Shown here: piece after piece, positions 4,291 to 10,790 of the stretch
Layout of the letters: each line of letters begins with the position of its first letter
How positions within the stretch are numbered: the stretch's first letter is position 1
DNA from: Gammaproteobacteria bacterium
GTDB lineage: Bacteria; Pseudomonadota; Gammaproteobacteria; Tenderiales; Tenderiaceae
NCBI GenBank assembly: GCA_027001525.1
Contig: JALTMR010000460.1
Span: forward strand, 1-10,790
DNA: 10,790 bases
Direction: 5' to 3'
Notes under the pieces: model-generated
The model's input: the letters and a program-made list of their open reading frames with translations, nothing else
Databases searched by the model: none
Told to the model about the DNA's origin: nothing
Made by a program: the position numbers and the translations under genes

Positions 4291-4323
4291 CGACATCACC
4301 GCGGCACGGTTGTCGGAGCTTTT
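4291..4323 (+). terminator. Weak candidate terminator between convergent genes
   Basis: Directly after the barrel stop, CGACA..ACCG (4291-4301) can pair with CGGTTGTCG (4307-4315) across loop CGGCA, with a two-base bulge (4296-4297). A TTTT run follows at 4320-4323 after a four-base spacer (GAGC). The spacer and bulge make it weak. It fits the only space between the barrel gene and the oppositely oriented response regulator. Confidence 0.3.
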
Positions 4324-4942
4324 AACGCGAAAAATACTCCGCCGCAAAATGCAGCAGCGCGTTGCTGCCTTTGAGGCCCAGTTTGTCGACGATGTGGTGA
4401 CGGTGGTTTTGCACGGTGCGGATGCTGATGTTTTGCTGCTCGGCAATTTCGCGGCTGGTTTTGAACTCACCCACCAGTTTTGCGATCTCTAACTCGGCAG
4501 GGGTCAGGGAGGCGATTTTTTCATCGCCCAGGGTGATGGCAGCGTCCCGCTGGGCGATGGAGGCACTAAGGTAGCGCTGGCCGTTGCACACGGCCTCCAG
4601 ACAACGAATCAGCTCCGACTCGGCATCCTCCTTTAACAGGTAGGCATGGGCGCCCAGGTCGAAGGCTTTTTCAATCAGTTTGCTGTCGTCGTACATGGTT
4701 AACATGACGAAGCGGGTCTTGGGCGACAGCGATTTTGTCTTTTGCAGCACCTCAAGCCCGCCGGCAAACGGCATTTTAATGTCCAGCACGGCAATATCGG
4801 GCAGACCCTCGGTGATCTGCTGGATCGCCGCCTCACCGTCGCGGGCCTCGGTGCATTGGTAACATGCTTCGCTGCTCAGGATATGGCGTAAACCGACGCG
4901 GTAGATAGGGTGATCATCGGCAATCAGGACAGAGTAGTTCAC
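4322..4942 (-). CDS. NarL/FixJ-family response regulator
   Basis: 206 residues with a receiver domain followed by a LuxR-type helix-turn-helix; a cytoplasmic DNA-binding regulator controlled by phosphorylation. Receiver landmarks are Asp9-Asp10 (metal binding), Asp54 in AVLDIKMP (phosphoacceptor), Thr82 in VMLTMYDD and Lys104 in YLLKEDA, all conserved, so it should be phosphorylatable. The output domain, residues ~145-205, reads LTPAELEIAKLV, then REIAEQQNISIRTVQNHRHHI, then VDKLGL. The start is GTG at 4942, two bases after the TAA of the histidine kinase gene, with GGAGG inside the kinase's last codons. This coupling marks the kinase as its partner. Target genes are unknown; the divergent lipoprotein/barrel unit next door is a possible but unproven target. 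Confidence 0.93.
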   Translation of the reverse strand: MNYSVLIADDHPIYRVGLRHILSSEACYQCTEARDGEAAIQQITEGLPDIAVLDIKMPFAGGLEVLQKTKSLSPKTRFVMLTMYDDSKLIEKAFDLGAHAYLLKEDAESELIRCLEAVCNGQRYLSASIAQRDAAITLGDEKIASLTPAELEIAKLVGEFKTSREIAEQQNISIRTVQNHRHHIVDKLGLKGSNALLHFAAEYFSR

Positions 4943-4944
4943 GG

Positions 4945-6819
4945 TTACGCCTCCACAGGCAGTATCACCACCACACGGGTCCCCTGGGGTGTGATGGACT
5001 TGAGTTCAAACGTTCCTCCCAGCAGTACGGCACGATGTTTCATGCTCGCCACCCCCAGGCCGGCATTCGCTGCACCGGACTTCAGGCCCACACCATTATC
5101 GGTCACGGACAGATGGATCATCTCCTGCCTGCGCTGCAACGAGATGTCGAGCCGCGTTGCGCCGGCATGTTTCATGGCGTTGCTGACAGATTCCTGGACG
5201 ATGCGAAACAGGTGCAGCTCTGTCTCGCCATCCAGACTTTCAAATCCATCGGAAATATCGACCCGGCATCTGAGCCCTCCCGGTTCATCGATGCGCTCGG
5301 CAATGGACTCAATGGCCGTCACCAGCCCCAGCTGATCCAGGATGTAGGGGTGCAGCTGGTGGGAGATCGCCCTGACTTCGTTGACCGTATCCCGGCTCAC
5401 CTGTTTGGCCTGTTGCAATTCCACACTGTCATGGCCCTGAGCCAGGCGGTTAAGGCTGCTGGCCAGGAATGAGAGGTTCTGCCCCACGCCATCGTGCAGC
5501 TCTTCGGCAATGCGTTTGCGCTCGCTGTCCTGGGCGTTGATCAGCTGGGTGGAGAACCTTTTTTTAGCGGCATCGGCAGCGTGAATGGTGTCGATTAACT
5601 GCGCCTGCGCCGCCAGCTTTTCGTTGCGCAGAAAACTGATGCGATCCGCCAGAGCAAAAGAGAGCAGCACGGCGGCGACGGCGGTTCCCATGGAGAAGAG
5701 ATGCTCCGTCCAGAAGGTGGTATCCACCAGACCGTAGGTTCTCGCCATGATGAGCACCACGCCGGGAAGAATGGGCAGAAACGCAATCAACGTAAACCTG
5801 GCTGGCGGGTAGTGGGCGCGCCAGGCGGCGATGAGGGGCAGTGGAATCAGCAGTGCCACCAGGCCGCCAAACAGGGGCAAGACAAAAAACAGCGGCCCGG
5901 GGCCCAACAAGGCCACCGGCACCATCATCAACAGTGCCAGGAGCACCATGGCGCTGAGCAGGCGGTGGAGCCGAGGCGCGTATTGCTGGCTCAGGGAGAT
6001 GTACTGGGTAAAACGCAGCCCCCCCGCCATGCAGAGCCACAACGCCAGGCTGGCACTGCGGTCTGCCAGCGCCGGCCAGTCGGGCAGCAGGTAGAGCCGC
6101 GTGAACCCCGCCATGGAAAACTGAAACAGAAGGAAGGCCCCCAGGTAGACCGAAAACCAGAGATAGGCGTTGTCTTTCACCGTGGGATAGAGAAACAAAT
6201 TGTAAAACACCAGGCCGATGAGCACCCCGTAGACGATGCCGTTCACCAGCGTGTTGTTCAGCTGATCGGCCTCAAAAGCGCTGCGTTGCCACAAGGTTAG
6301 GGGCACGGTGATGGAGGTGCTGCTGTGGATTCGCACAAACACATCCGTCAGTGCATCGGCGGTCAGGGAGAGGGGGAACACCGGTTGCGGCAGGTAGGGT
6401 AACGGCTGCGCGGCCAGGGGGCGCTGATCCCCCGCCCTGAAGTGCTGCCATGGCGTCGTTGATCCATCGCGCACATAAAGATCGATCTCATCGAGCTGGG
6501 TATAGGGCAGCGCCAGCCACCACGCCCGCTGCTCCGCCTCAGCCGTCGGTCGCAGCTCGAACCAGAGCCAGTAGGCCCCTGCGGCACGAGGCAGGCTGGC
6601 GTTATCAAGCCGCCCCTGGAAGCGTGCCGTATCTGCGCTGACCTGACTGATCGTTGCCGAGGCGGAAGCGTCGTAATACCAGTGAATGTGGGGCGTCAGC
6701 GCTAATTTCTGCTGCGCTGAAACAACCACCTCTGACGCCCCGCCAGCGCCACTGAACAACAGCAGCAAGAGCAGCAAGAGCAGAAAAGACCACCGCCGTT
6801 CCAGCAACAGAGCACTCAT
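4945..6819 (-). CDS. 7TMR-DISM sensor histidine kinase
   Basis: 624 residues. A leucine-rich signal segment (residues ~11-22) precedes a periplasmic region, residues ~40-175, typical of a 7TMR-DISMED2 jelly-roll domain: YWLWFELRP, DEIDLYVRDG, then VFVRIHSSTSITVPLTLW. Seven hydrophobic helices follow (residues ~190-397), beginning VNGIVYGVLIGLVFYNLFLY. The kinase core has HisKA_3 with ERKRIAEELHDGVGQ (phospho-acceptor His442), the N-box ESVSNAMKHAG (Asn547), the DNGVGL box (Asp574) and a GLGVASMKHR segment, so ATP binding and autophosphorylation look intact. The DISMED2 fold is thought to bind carbohydrate-like or other small ligands; the ligand here is unknown. ATG 6819 has only a weak Shine-Dalgarno sequence and lies 35 bases after the yaiI stop. 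It forms a two-component pair with the downstream regulator. Confidence 0.93.
   Translation of the reverse strand: MSALLLERRWSFLLLLLLLLLFSGAGGASEVVVSAQQKLALTPHIHWYYDASASATISQVSADTARFQGRLDNASLPRAAGAYWLWFELRPTAEAEQRAWWLALPYTQLDEIDLYVRDGSTTPWQHFRAGDQRPLAAQPLPYLPQPVFPLSLTADALTDVFVRIHSSTSITVPLTLWQRSAFEADQLNNTLVNGIVYGVLIGLVFYNLFLYPTVKDNAYLWFSVYLGAFLLFQFSMAGFTRLYLLPDWPALADRSASLALWLCMAGGLRFTQYISLSQQYAPRLHRLLSAMVLLALLMMVPVALLGPGPLFFVLPLFGGLVALLIPLPLIAAWRAHYPPARFTLIAFLPILPGVVLIMARTYGLVDTTFWTEHLFSMGTAVAAVLLSFALADRISFLRNEKLAAQAQLIDTIHAADAAKKRFSTQLINAQDSERKRIAEELHDGVGQNLSFLASSLNRLAQGHDSVELQQAKQVSRDTVNEVRAISHQLHPYILDQLGLVTAIESIAERIDEPGGLRCRVDISDGFESLDGETELHLFRIVQESVSNAMKHAGATRLDISLQRRQEMIHLSVTDNGVGLKSGAANAGLGVASMKHRAVLLGGTFELKSITPQGTRVVVILPVEA
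4950..4954 (-). promoter_or_regulatory. Ribosome binding site for the GTG-started response regulator
   Basis: On the minus strand, GGAGG lies within the last codons of the kinase gene, 7 bases before the GTG start at 4942 and just before the kinase TAA (4947-4945). This supports the GTG start and translational coupling of kinase and regulator. Confidence 0.7.
6763..6783 (-). repeat. 9-base tandem repeat in the kinase signal segment
   Basis: The unit CAGCAAGAG (plus strand) occurs twice in a row (6763-6771 and 6772-6780), followed by a partial third CAG. On the coding strand it encodes Leu-Leu-Leu units. Copy changes would be in frame and would lengthen or shorten the hydrophobic core by three leucines. 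Confidence 0.5.
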
Positions 6820-8072: not shown

Positions 8073-8102
8073 TTCAATCATAAGGGTAATTGCTTCTATA
8101 AT
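8073..8102 (+). promoter_or_regulatory. Candidate sigma-70 promoter for the HD-GYP gene
   Basis: A perfect -10 hexamer TATAAT lies at 8097-8102. The -35 is poor: TTCAAT at 8073-8078 (3 of 6) with an 18-base spacer. Transcription would begin around 8109, downstream of the ATG at 8101, which argues for translation from ATG 8143. Confidence 0.45.
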
Positions 8103-8142
8103 GGGAAACCATTCTCCTCACCCAAGGTTGCTGCAGGTCATT

Positions 8143-9288
8143 ATGAATTCAGATGAGAGCTTCCAACACCGGGATACATTGGCCTTTCTCAATCAGCGGG
8201 GGCCCCTTAAAGACAAGCTCGTCGCTGCCCACGCCGTGGTGCAGAATGCCCTCCCTTTCGTCGCCCGCATCGCCCTGGCGCTTTACGACCCCGCCACCAC
8301 GATGCTTAAGACCTACATGCACAGCAGCGGTGAGGATAATCCACTGGAGCACTACCAGACCCTCATCGACAACGCCCCTTCGCTCAAAAGAATTCTGGAG
8401 CAGGGCCAGCCGCGCGTCATCAACAAGATGCTGACGTTCGAGGATGAAAACAGCCCGCCGCATATCAAGCGCCTGGGCCGTCAGGGCTACGCCGCCAGCT
8501 ACACGATTCCCATGTTCGATAACGGTGAATTCATCGGCTTTTTATTCTTCAACTCCTACGAGGCAGATGTCTTTAGCGAGCGCGTGCTACAGGAACTGGA
8601 TCTGCACGGCCATCTCATTGCACTGATGCTCATCAAGGAGTTGTCCTTGCTGCAAACACTCACCGCAGCCATCAAAACGGCCGGCCATATTACCCACCAC
8701 CGTGACCCGGAAACCGGCAGCCACCTGGATCGCATGTCCCGCTACAGCCGCCTCATTGCCCTGGAACTGGCGAAAAAGCACGGCCTGGATGATACCTACG
8801 TCGAAAGCGTCTTCACCTTTGCACCGCTGCACGATATCGGCAAGATCGCCATCCCGGACGACATCCTCCTCAAGCCCGGGCCACTGAGCGACGAGGAGAT
8901 GAACGTCATGCGCACCCACACCCTCAAAGGGCGGCAGATGATTGATGAGCTGATTGAAAACTTCGGCCTGGAGAACCTCGACCAGGCCAATATCATGCGC
9001 AACATCACTACCTACCATCACGAGGCACTGAACGGCAGCGGTTACCCCCAGGGCCTGGCGGGGGAGAAAATCCCCCTGGAAGCACGCATTGTGGCTGTTG
9101 CGGATATTTTCGACGCCCTCACCAGCAGACGCCCCTACAAGGAGGCATGGAGCAACGAGCAGGCATTTGCACAGCTCCAAGCACTGGCCGGCGAAGTGCT
9201 GGACGCAGACTGCGTTAACGCCCTGATCGAAGCCCGCCAGGAGGTGGAACAGATCCAGCAACGGTTTCAGGAAAACAGATTGGGCTAG
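8143..9288 (+). CDS. GAF-HD-GYP cyclic-di-GMP phosphodiesterase
   Basis: 381 residues from ATG 8143 (395 from an alternative ATG 8101, which overlaps a TATAAT box). AGG at 8135-8137 precedes 8143 by 5 bases. Residues ~20-170 form a GAF-like sensor region (FVARIALALYDPATTMLKTYM, then YTIPMFDNGEFIGFLFFNS). The C-terminal HD-GYP domain shows HRDPETGSHLDRMSRYSRL, the HD pair in LHDIGKIAIPD (His230, Asp231), HHEALNGSGYPQGL (His292, His293, Glu294, Gly300-Tyr301-Pro302) and AVADIFDALTSRRPYKE. All metal-binding and GYP residues are present, so hydrolysis of cyclic di-GMP in the cytoplasm is expected; Asn replaces the more usual Asp before GSGYP. No membrane segment is seen, so the signal is probably intracellular. 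It may promote motility over biofilm growth by lowering cyclic di-GMP, which suits the chemotaxis genes downstream, but that link is inference. Confidence 0.92.
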   Translation: MNSDESFQHRDTLAFLNQRGPLKDKLVAAHAVVQNALPFVARIALALYDPATTMLKTYMHSSGEDNPLEHYQTLIDNAPSLKRILEQGQPRVINKMLTFEDENSPPHIKRLGRQGYAASYTIPMFDNGEFIGFLFFNSYEADVFSERVLQELDLHGHLIALMLIKELSLLQTLTAAIKTAGHITHHRDPETGSHLDRMSRYSRLIALELAKKHGLDDTYVESVFTFAPLHDIGKIAIPDDILLKPGPLSDEEMNVMRTHTLKGRQMIDELIENFGLENLDQANIMRNITTYHHEALNGSGYPQGLAGEKIPLEARIVAVADIFDALTSRRPYKEAWSNEQAFAQLQALAGEVLDADCVNALIEARQEVEQIQQRFQENRLG

Positions 9289-9726: not shown

Positions 9727-9753
9727 TCAAGTTTACTCACCAGATGCCGTAAA
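9727..9753 (+). promoter_or_regulatory. Sigma-28 (FliA) flagellar-type promoter
   Basis: TCAAGTTT (9727-9734), an 11-base spacer, then GCCGTAAA (9746-9753). Compared with the enterobacterial FliA consensus TAAAGTTT-N11-GCCGATAA, this matches 7 of 8 and 6 of 8 positions with exactly the preferred spacing. It lies about 60 bases upstream of the PAS gene and points toward it. Chemoreceptor genes are classic FliA targets, so position and content agree. Confidence 0.75.
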
Positions 9754-9814: not shown

Positions 9815-10333
9815 ATGAAGCAACGGATTGCCCCGACAGATAAAGAGTGGTTTTTGCCAGAAGGTGAAACCATCATCTCCAAGACCGACACCAAAGGTCG
9901 TATCACCTATGGCAACGGCATTTTACTGGAAATCACAGGATTCAGCGAAGCAGAGTTGCTTGGCAAGCAACACAATATCGTTCGCCACCCCGACATGCCC
10001 CGAGGTGTCTTCCACCTGTTGTGGGAGACGGTAAAGGCCGGCGAGGAGTTTAATGGCTACGTCAAAAATCTGCGCAAGGATGGCGGCTTTTACTGGGTCT
10101 TTGCCAACGTCACCCCCAGTTACAACGGCCGCGGCGAGCTGGTCGGGTACTACTCGGTGAGACGCAAACCCTCAGCGGCGGCACTCAAGAGCATTCAACC
10201 CGTTTATCAACAGATGCTGGCGGCGGAGCGGGCGGCAACCACCAAAGAAGCCATCAGCGCCTCACGCAATGTGCTGCAAGGCATTCTGGAAACCAAGGGG
10301 GTCAGCTATGACGAATTTGTCTTCACGCTTTAG
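9815..10333 (+). CDS. Stand-alone Aer-type PAS sensor protein (CetB-like)
   Basis: 172 residues, soluble. Residues ~20-115 align with the PAS domain of the E. coli aerotaxis receptor Aer without a gap from my recollection of that sequence: Asn34, HNIVRHPDMP (His53, Arg57, His58, Asp60), Trp70, VKN (Asn85) and YWV (Tyr93) fall at the same numbers. In Aer this domain holds FAD and reports cellular redox state. Trp79 of Aer is Phe79 here. After the PAS domain a ~55-residue helical tail ends KGVSYDEFVFTL, an ending I recall from other stand-alone proteins of this type. There is no membrane segment and no signalling domain. It overlaps the next gene by 26 bases, suggesting that sensor and transducer act together. 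The ribosome binding site before ATG 9815 is weak. FAD as cofactor is inferred from the family. Confidence 0.9.
   Translation: MKQRIAPTDKEWFLPEGETIISKTDTKGRITYGNGILLEITGFSEAELLGKQHNIVRHPDMPRGVFHLLWETVKAGEEFNGYVKNLRKDGGFYWVFANVTPSYNGRGELVGYYSVRRKPSAAALKSIQPVYQQMLAAERAATTKEAISASRNVLQGILETKGVSYDEFVFTL
10295..10301 (+). promoter_or_regulatory. Ribosome binding site for the overlapping chemoreceptor gene
   Basis: AAGGGGG lies inside the PAS gene, 6 bases before ATG 10308, an ideal Shine-Dalgarno position. It supports a real separate gene rather than a frameshifted continuation of the PAS protein. Confidence 0.7.
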
Positions 10334-10790
10334 TCCGGCGCAAGCCCTGCTCTTCGCTCTGGGAGCCATCGTTGCGCAAACCGTTTACGTGCTGGCACAA
10401 ACCGGCGCCGACATCATCCTCATCGTCACGACCGCACTGGGCATTGGCTTTGCCTTGCTCGCCTTACGAAGCCAAAGAGCAAACCAGCAGCTGGACCAGA
10501 AGGTGGTTCAGTTGTGCCGGCAGATGGCCCGAGGTGAACTGGAACAGCGCATCACCCGCATCCCCTCACACCTTCCTTCCGCCCCCAGTGCTCACGCTTT
10601 AAATGCCGCGCTGGACCAAATCGAGGTCTACATGCGTGAAAGCGCGACCCTGATCCAGTACCAGAGAATGAGACGTTTCTACCGTCCGATCCTGAGCGAG
10701 GGAGTGCACGGCCTGTTCAGTACCGCGCTAGATGAACTGGAAAACTCACTCAAGGCGATGGAGGAAAACTACTGGCGCAGCAACGCGAAC
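10308..10790 (+). CDS. Chemoreceptor-type membrane transducer, N-terminal part (CetA-like; truncated by window edge)
   Basis: ATG 10308 opens a frame that stays open to the last base, giving 161 residues. It begins inside the PAS gene in another frame. Two hydrophobic segments, residues ~11-29 and ~36-53, are separated by only AQTGAD, forming a membrane hairpin with essentially no periplasmic domain, as in Aer. A HAMP-like region follows (MARGELEQRI, then ALNAALDQIEVYMRESA, residues ~73-113), and then RRFYRPILSEGVHGLFSTALDELENSL, which looks like a second HAMP-like or linker segment seen in some chemoreceptors. The methyl-accepting signalling hairpin would lie beyond 10790 and is not visible, so identity as a methyl-accepting protein is inference. 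The short hairpin and the upstream PAS gene suggest that it receives its signal from the PAS protein. Confidence 0.75.
   Translation, partial: MTNLSSRFSPAQALLFALGAIVAQTVYVLAQTGADIILIVTTALGIGFALLALRSQRANQQLDQKVVQLCRQMARGELEQRITRIPSHLPSAPSAHALNAALDQIEVYMRESATLIQYQRMRRFYRPILSEGVHGLFSTALDELENSLKAMEENYWRSNAN

Follow-up and report, generated by a model that had tools for sequence, protein, structure and literature searches.

A probable CetB/CetA-type bipartite receptor in a gammaproteobacterium and charge covariation between the PAS and transducer proteins of its relatives

The 10,790-nucleotide (nt) stretch of DNA analyzed here (the window) is contig C460 (JALTMR010000460.1) of a draft gammaproteobacterial genome comprising 2.75 Mb in 583 contigs (88% complete). 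At its right-hand end it carries two overlapping genes that very probably encode a bipartite energy or aerotaxis receptor of the CetB/CetA type. The first gene (9815..10333, stop codon TAG at 10331-10333) codes for a CetB-like PAS sensor protein of 172 residues. The second (10308..10790) provides the first 161 of the 498 codons of a CetA-like transducer; it runs off the contig and continues on another one, C220 (L023:143-1156). Features of the pair all lie on the forward strand. Relatives were collected through PAS-based searches, which eventually gave 224 PAS-transducer pairs.

Only PAS families score on the 172-residue protein in family searches (PAS_3, 54.3 bits against a cut-off of 25.6), and its best match among solved structures by sequence search is the PAS domain of Escherichia coli Aer (8dik, E = 6e-30). 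An earlier note, made from the DNA sequence alone, had the protein match the Aer sensor nearly residue for residue. An Aer-type PAS protein of 172 residues it is, but the identity amounts to 50 of 120 aligned residues (42%), or 40% in the structural alignment. The flavin-pocket residues of CetB2 and Aer are present in the window and nearly invariant across the 224 pairs, and the protein very likely binds flavin adenine dinucleotide (FAD). In the predicted model the PAS core is accompanied by C-terminal helices (residues 121-140, 143-161 and 165-171, ending KGVSYDEFVFTL; 10169..10330), which are conserved across relatives and are modeled as ordered (predicted local distance difference test values 91-98). 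In a structure search with the model the 50 matches listed are all PAS or LOV chains, in which these helices are barely covered; the full-length Aer entry 31cj, found by sequence, is absent among those 50.

Within its own genome the PAS protein has matches at ten places: itself, a stand-alone PAS protein on contig C500 (48% identity) and eight at 22-33% identity, which sit in frames of at least 627 residues. No Aer-type single chain was seen among these ten places of the 88%-complete genome. The C500 gene codes for a tail-less Aer-type PAS protein and stands (L024:2857-6522) in a row with genes for a Ras-like GTPase, two roadblock-type proteins (one below the cut-off), a single-domain protoglobin and a phosphonate-binding-type protein. 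A tail-less PAS gene followed by a 251-residue frame recurs at L150, which suggests that the C500 type is another PAS-based signaling module.

The window part of the transducer starts with a membrane hairpin (residues about 9-56; 10332..10475), read from hydrophobicity as two hydrophobic stretches split by QTGAD. A HAMP-like region follows (residues about 57-117; 10476..10658), with G76, R81, N99, D103, E106 and E111 in columns that are near-invariant in the 224 pairs (Glu or Asp at 106). The Aer-like hairpin and HAMP-like part announced by the earlier note thus stand on the hydrophobic stretches and on family similarity, but not on a Pfam HAMP match, as the region falls below Pfam HAMP scoring. 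Nine near-invariant positions, our own selection from the 224 pairs, are all present in the window transducer. Elliott et al. (2009) reportedly described nine conserved HAMP and proximal residues in HAMP/PAS pairs, and may have listed gammaproteobacterial pairs already. For the 161-residue start no useful Pfam or NCBIfam family was found, and a protein search gave one relative only. Against the transducer model, the first two single-chain PAS receptors aligned reach 22 and 29 bits in the transmembrane (TM)-HAMP part.

The last 47 residues of the transducer frame in the window recur at the start of C220 of the same assembly. The DNA overlap between the window end and C220 spans 142 nt with one mismatch, lies at the contig ends and continues the frame. 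In Pfam searches the joined 498-residue transducer has an MCPsignal domain (E = 5e-33), the very domain for which a search past position 10790 had been proposed, and then a C-terminal CZB domain (PF13682, E = 9e-13, 48.8 bits against a cut-off of 29.4). In the latter, H370, C400, H428 and H432, which we take to be the CZB zinc ligands, are in place. Across the two contigs, the transducer adjoins the PAS gene and has no PAS domain of its own. The genome contains ten MCP-domain matches, nine of them above the cut-off and C220 among them, as well as ten CheW-domain matches.

The two genes overlap by 26 nt (10308..10333). The ATG of the transducer gene at 10308 sits in the Tyr-Asp codons TAT GAC of the PAS gene, and six bases ahead of it, likewise within the PAS gene, lies the Shine-Dalgarno (SD)-like AAGGGGG (10295..10301), as had been noticed before. 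The PAS codons that contain this second start specify a conserved tail motif, K-G-x-S-Y-(D/E)-E-F; the tail Tyr motif is present in 113 of 116 pairs. Among the named loci (defined below) the overlap is exactly 26 nt in 33 of 80 when the frame is taken from the first start codon. The corresponding count of 44 of 74 is biased because starts nearest to -26 were selected, a bias of which the former count is free. In the 93 pairs with the partner in the tail-ATG frame, the tail Tyr is encoded by TAT and TAC in a ratio of 75:18, compared with 328:307 for the other Tyr residues of the same genes (Fisher P = 9e-8). For 20 other pairs, with the partner in another frame, the ratios are 14:6 and 52:74 (P = 0.03). 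Of the 93 pairs, 77 have an SD-like core in the 12 nt that precede the tail Tyr codon, as do ten of the 20. Since the tail motif is kept also at loci without gene overlap, it seems to be conserved both as protein and as a start site. The 26-nt overlap probably couples the translation of the two genes.

Upstream of the PAS start codon, at a distance of 62 nt, lies a putative sigma-28 (FliA)-like promoter, TCAAGTTT-N11-GCCGTAAA (9727..9753). Promoters were scored with the sigma-28 consensus, to which this sequence has three mismatches; it is the sole match with at most three mismatches in the window, where 0.01 would be expected. Within 250 nt upstream, the best score reaches at least 12 of 16 for 23 related PAS genes out of 116, which include the window's own and those of L037-L042 and L047, and for two of 116 on the opposite strand. 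The mean best score is 10.2 upstream versus 9.3 on the opposite strand and 9.3 in block-shuffled sequences. Transcription of the pair probably goes along with that of the flagellar regulon.

Searching named genomes with the PAS alignment gave at least 596 stretches, 593 of which were confirmed; the counts for named loci refer to the best 80 loci. A TM/HAMP-type frame lies directly downstream of the PAS gene in 74 of them, cultured strains included, and 71 of the 74 partners have an MCP domain. The same gene pair that the earlier note had suggested looking for is therefore found in other genomes. Together with the MCP domain on the second contig, this bears out its assignment of the CetB/CetA layout. 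CZB was detected on 35 of the 71 MCP partners (E 0.01, CZB model made from A2), some of these matches being weak and that of L103 below the Pfam cut-off. Pfam itself, run on 24 chosen transducers, revealed MCPsignal in 23 and CZB in nine at E 0.01. The three partners without an MCP domain are those of L079, which has a SpoIIE-type phosphatase, L082 (contig end) and L121 (frame break). As to the other six of the 80 loci, L068 has an MCP-CZB gene upstream, while L086, L088, L095, L110 and L122 have none within the sequence examined. Organism names among the named loci cover gamma-, beta-, alpha- and epsilonproteobacteria, Holophagaceae, Ignavibacteriales, Verrucomicrobiales and Kineosporia.

Five loci of the same family as the window (L037-L041) all code for a 175-residue PAS protein and then, with a 32-nt overlap, for a 486-490-residue transducer with MCP and CZB domains. 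In L042, from another family of the class, a 4-nt spacer separates the pair. The CZB domain of L041 (2586-4043) has no conserved Cys in an otherwise full-length transducer. At L079 (3995-8130) the CetB-like PAS gene shares 26 nt with the gene of a TM/HAMP-like protein ending in the phosphatase domain, with DUF6272, SiaC and HD-domain genes behind; here a two-protein sensor is apparently plugged into a non-chemotaxis output. No paper joining a PAS/HAMP sensor with SiaA/SiaC/SpoIIE was found in a search of the open-licence literature.

Among 274 genomes sampled from the window's class, 18, its own included, have a match to the tailed PAS model at E < 1e-60; in G044 this match extends only to model position 147. 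At 1e-20 any PAS-model match is found in 95 of the 274, many of the listed weaker matches lying in frames of at least 500 residues. At 1e-50 there are matches in 27 of 398 genomes of the phylum (including the window's own and two ending before the tail), in 49 of 337 genomes of another class of the phylum and, within the window's class, in 43 of 300 genomes of one order, where a few count through partial matches. Neither the gammaproteobacterial host nor the overlap of the pair, both pointed out in the earlier note, is therefore unusual; Magnetospirillum gryphiswaldense has four cetBA pairs described as overlapping. Several frame changes interrupt the PAS gene and the transducer of the single-contig genome G044 (L044:1909-4238); the tail motif survives in another frame, and the pair is either a decayed copy or affected by sequencing errors. 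Three related tailed PAS genes (L176, L177 and L180) are not followed by a transducer; the nearest long frame downstream resembles IMP dehydrogenase as read from its sequence.

We used covariation to look for contacts between the two proteins. PAS and transducer sequences were paired from 121 loci (the training set). The first leader, PAS 166/transducer 2, proved to be an artefact of the two genes sharing DNA. The same DNA encodes both proteins at PAS residues 161-172, and these last 12 residues were therefore left outside the ranking, which kept PAS positions up to 160 and transducer positions from 12 on. The top coupling between the proteins is then PAS 35/transducer 100, with z = 8.5 against a maximum of 3.1 for this pair on re-pairing within clades. 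It alone exceeds both null maxima over all pairs (6.3 for free and 7.3 for within-clade re-pairing). The codons concerned are 9917..9919 in the PAS gene and 10605-10607 in the HAMP-like region of the transducer gene. Another candidate, PAS 115/transducer 106 (z = 7.1), mostly reflects clade structure, its within-clade null mean being 5.5. For PAS 23/transducer 106 the charge correlation is r = -0.72.

The residues at 35/100 in the training set are mostly R-D (39), R-E (13) and K-D (4), but also the swapped D-R (8) and D-H (5), with D-D (7) as the contrary combination. In terms of charge, 68 pairs are opposite, ten are the same, 32 have one charge and 11 are neutral, and the sum of charge products is -58, compared with -9.3 (standard deviation 6.8) on random re-pairing. 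A fresh set was collected afterwards from 113 new PAS sequences, ten of which had no partner and were dropped. It comprises 103 pairs with a median best PAS identity to training of 0.63, and gave 66 opposite, two same, 24 singly charged and 11 neutral pairs, with a sum of -64 versus -3.0 (standard deviation 7.2). Restricting the fresh set to the 86 pairs with no more than 80% identity to training leaves 55, 2, 24 and 5, respectively. Over all 224 pairs the charge correlation at 35/100 is r = -0.74, and no other transducer column goes beyond -0.33 for PAS 35. Re-pairing partners within PAS clusters never gave the observed value at any of the cut-offs from 1.0 to 0.35 (3000 trials each); at 0.30, with little room for shuffling, it was reached in 2.2%. 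In 27 genomes with at least two pairs, cognate combinations are opposite in 32 cases, the same in two and include a neutral residue in 25, versus 26, 21 and 27 for non-cognate combinations. This charge-swap covariation supports direct docking of PAS on the HAMP-like region in relatives, and the charge pair may keep paralogous pairs apart. The proposal that the helical tail of the PAS protein is the docking element holds as far as order and conservation go. The docking role itself finds no such backing, as the strongest testable coupling, in a ranking that covered PAS residues up to 160, falls in the PAS core.

These observations are best explained by a CetB/CetA-type energy or aerotaxis receptor, a reading that we hold with high confidence together with the following mechanism. 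The cytoplasmic PAS protein would bind FAD and read the redox state of the respiratory chain. The chemoreceptor, anchored by the membrane hairpin and lacking an own sensor domain outside the membrane, would receive the PAS core at its HAMP-like helix. Along this helix the change would travel to the MCP tip and from there via CheA/CheW to the flagella. The CZB zinc domain at the end of the transducer would probably add a second input, responsive to oxidants or zinc.

Several alternatives have to be weighed against this receptor. As the bin is a draft in many contigs, a one-chain Aer could have been split by a sequencing or assembly error. PAS, HAMP and MCP do not lie on one polypeptide here, since the frames are separate and the first ends at its TAG, and there are two genes in relatives too. 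With a separate TM/HAMP partner directly downstream at 74 of the 80 named loci (71 with an MCP domain), the 26-nt overlap recurring exactly at 33, and the tail, embedded ATG and SD conserved, the split is not a sequencing accident in our judgment; the suspicion of such an error, raised before, is contradicted, and we consider it extremely improbable. Only marginal likelihood is given to a programmed +1 frameshift site in the overlap that would also yield some fused Aer-like chain. The frames do differ by +1, and CTT TAG closes the window PAS gene downstream of an SD-like stretch, but this stretch precedes the stop by about 30 nt and is positioned for the ATG. Moreover, the last codons and stops differ between loci, and several pairs have spacers rather than an overlap.

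The one mismatch in the 142-nt overlap would fit C220 being a paralogue or another strain's copy instead of the true continuation. This is improbable given that the overlap lies in frame at contig ends, that nowhere else in the genome except C220 is there a match to the window part of the gene, and that the joined length and domains match the L037-L042 partners (486-497 residues). A less remote, although still unlikely, alternative is that the pair exists as described but signals mainly through CZB (oxidant or zinc) or another cue rather than through flavin redox. The CZB score above its cut-off with all four residues in place speaks for it, as does the different role given by others to the related Magnetospirillum pair Amb0994/0995 (as reported in PMC12442639). 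The near-invariance of the flavin-pocket residues in the 224 pairs speaks against it, as do the 36 of 71 MCP partners without a CZB-model match and the loss of the Cys in L041.

Some observations weigh against the receptor as we describe it. Two contigs of a draft bin had to be combined, across that one mismatch, to obtain the transducer. The remaining couplings (z = 4.8-6.0) are below the null maxima and form no single clear face: PAS/transducer 17/43, 56/130, 14/108, 49/83, 21/26 and 98/114, and further 130/50, 21/23, 49/66, 139/26, 145/54 and 64/108. The window pair itself has Gly 35 and Ala 100, the only pair of the 224 with these residues, neutral at both positions, so that the charged contact is absent here. 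For 14 tailed PAS genes out of 138, neither flank contains a partner as far as it was examined, and some of these flanks are short. Conversely, the tail-less PAS genes L185 and L187 do have a TM/HAMP-MCP partner directly downstream. The L079 partner carries a phosphatase domain instead of MCP, and 93 of the 116 upstream regions score below 12 for the promoter.

Elsewhere in the window, a GAF and HD_5 protein, by family search a likely cyclic-di-GMP phosphodiesterase, is encoded upstream of the pair (8101-9288, forward strand). On the reverse strand (4322-6819), two adjoining frames would, judging from their translations, encode a response regulator and a membrane sensor kinase.

Compared with the pair of Campylobacter jejuni, in which we take cetA to come first, the window pair has the PAS gene first, a 26-nt overlap, a sigma-28-like promoter and a CZB domain. 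To our knowledge, E. coli Aer has no CZB either. C. jejuni CetB/CetA (PMC2628428) and the HAMP/PAS pairs reported by Elliott et al. (2009) are alike in having a PAS-only protein and an adjacent membrane-hairpin HAMP-MCP. The C. jejuni cetAB genes are separated by a 17-bp gap and expressed independently of sigma-28 and sigma-54, while CetB levels depend on CetA (PMC2628428). E. coli Aer (8dik; PMC9668731) shares the PAS fold and flavin pocket but is one chain without a separate transducer gene, and the 8dik chain stops at residue 134, short of the extra helices of the window protein; aer expression appears to be sigma-28-dependent (PMC2628428). M. gryphiswaldense, from another organism group, has four pairs, CetBA1-4, with overlapping genes (cetB first, as read from the name cetBA), an FAD-binding PAS protein and CetA-CetB interaction (PMC12442639). 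Its CetB2 binds FAD, interacts with CetA2 and sets the oxygen-repellent response; other paralogues cannot replace CetB2/CetA2, which the authors ascribe to interaction specificity or low expression (PMC12442639). CZB chemoreceptors (PMC8262984) are alike in their MCP and CZB domains, whereas the window MCP has a separate PAS partner protein as well.

The receptor kind is thus already known, overlapping cetBA genes included (PMC12442639), and the locus alone is not surprising. What is added here are the sigma-28-like promoter, CZB on about half of the MCP partners and the 35/100 charge-swap covariation. The main text of PMC12442639 does not mention CZB, zinc, salt bridges or coevolution, nor does the available part of a review of bipartite receptors (PMC13401364) mention CZB. 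In the open-licence literature available to us, supplements aside, we found neither CZB on a bipartite receptor (in PMC9665402 it belongs to Tlp6, not CetA) nor a coevolution study of the CetB/CetA pair. Evidence so far on how a PAS sensor addresses its transducer comes from cross-linking, two-hybrid data and models (PMC2628428, PMC12442639). We tentatively suggest, at somewhat below even chances, that 35/100 is a main specificity contact, placing the PAS core on the signaling helix and preventing cross-pairing within one cell, and that a large subset of the family adds a zinc domain and so would integrate flavin with oxidant or zinc signals. The charge-swap pair, seen in both the training and the fresh sets, offers a residue-level, testable answer to the question of PAS-transducer addressing, and the presence of CZB on half of the partners points to receptors that take up two inputs linked to redox.
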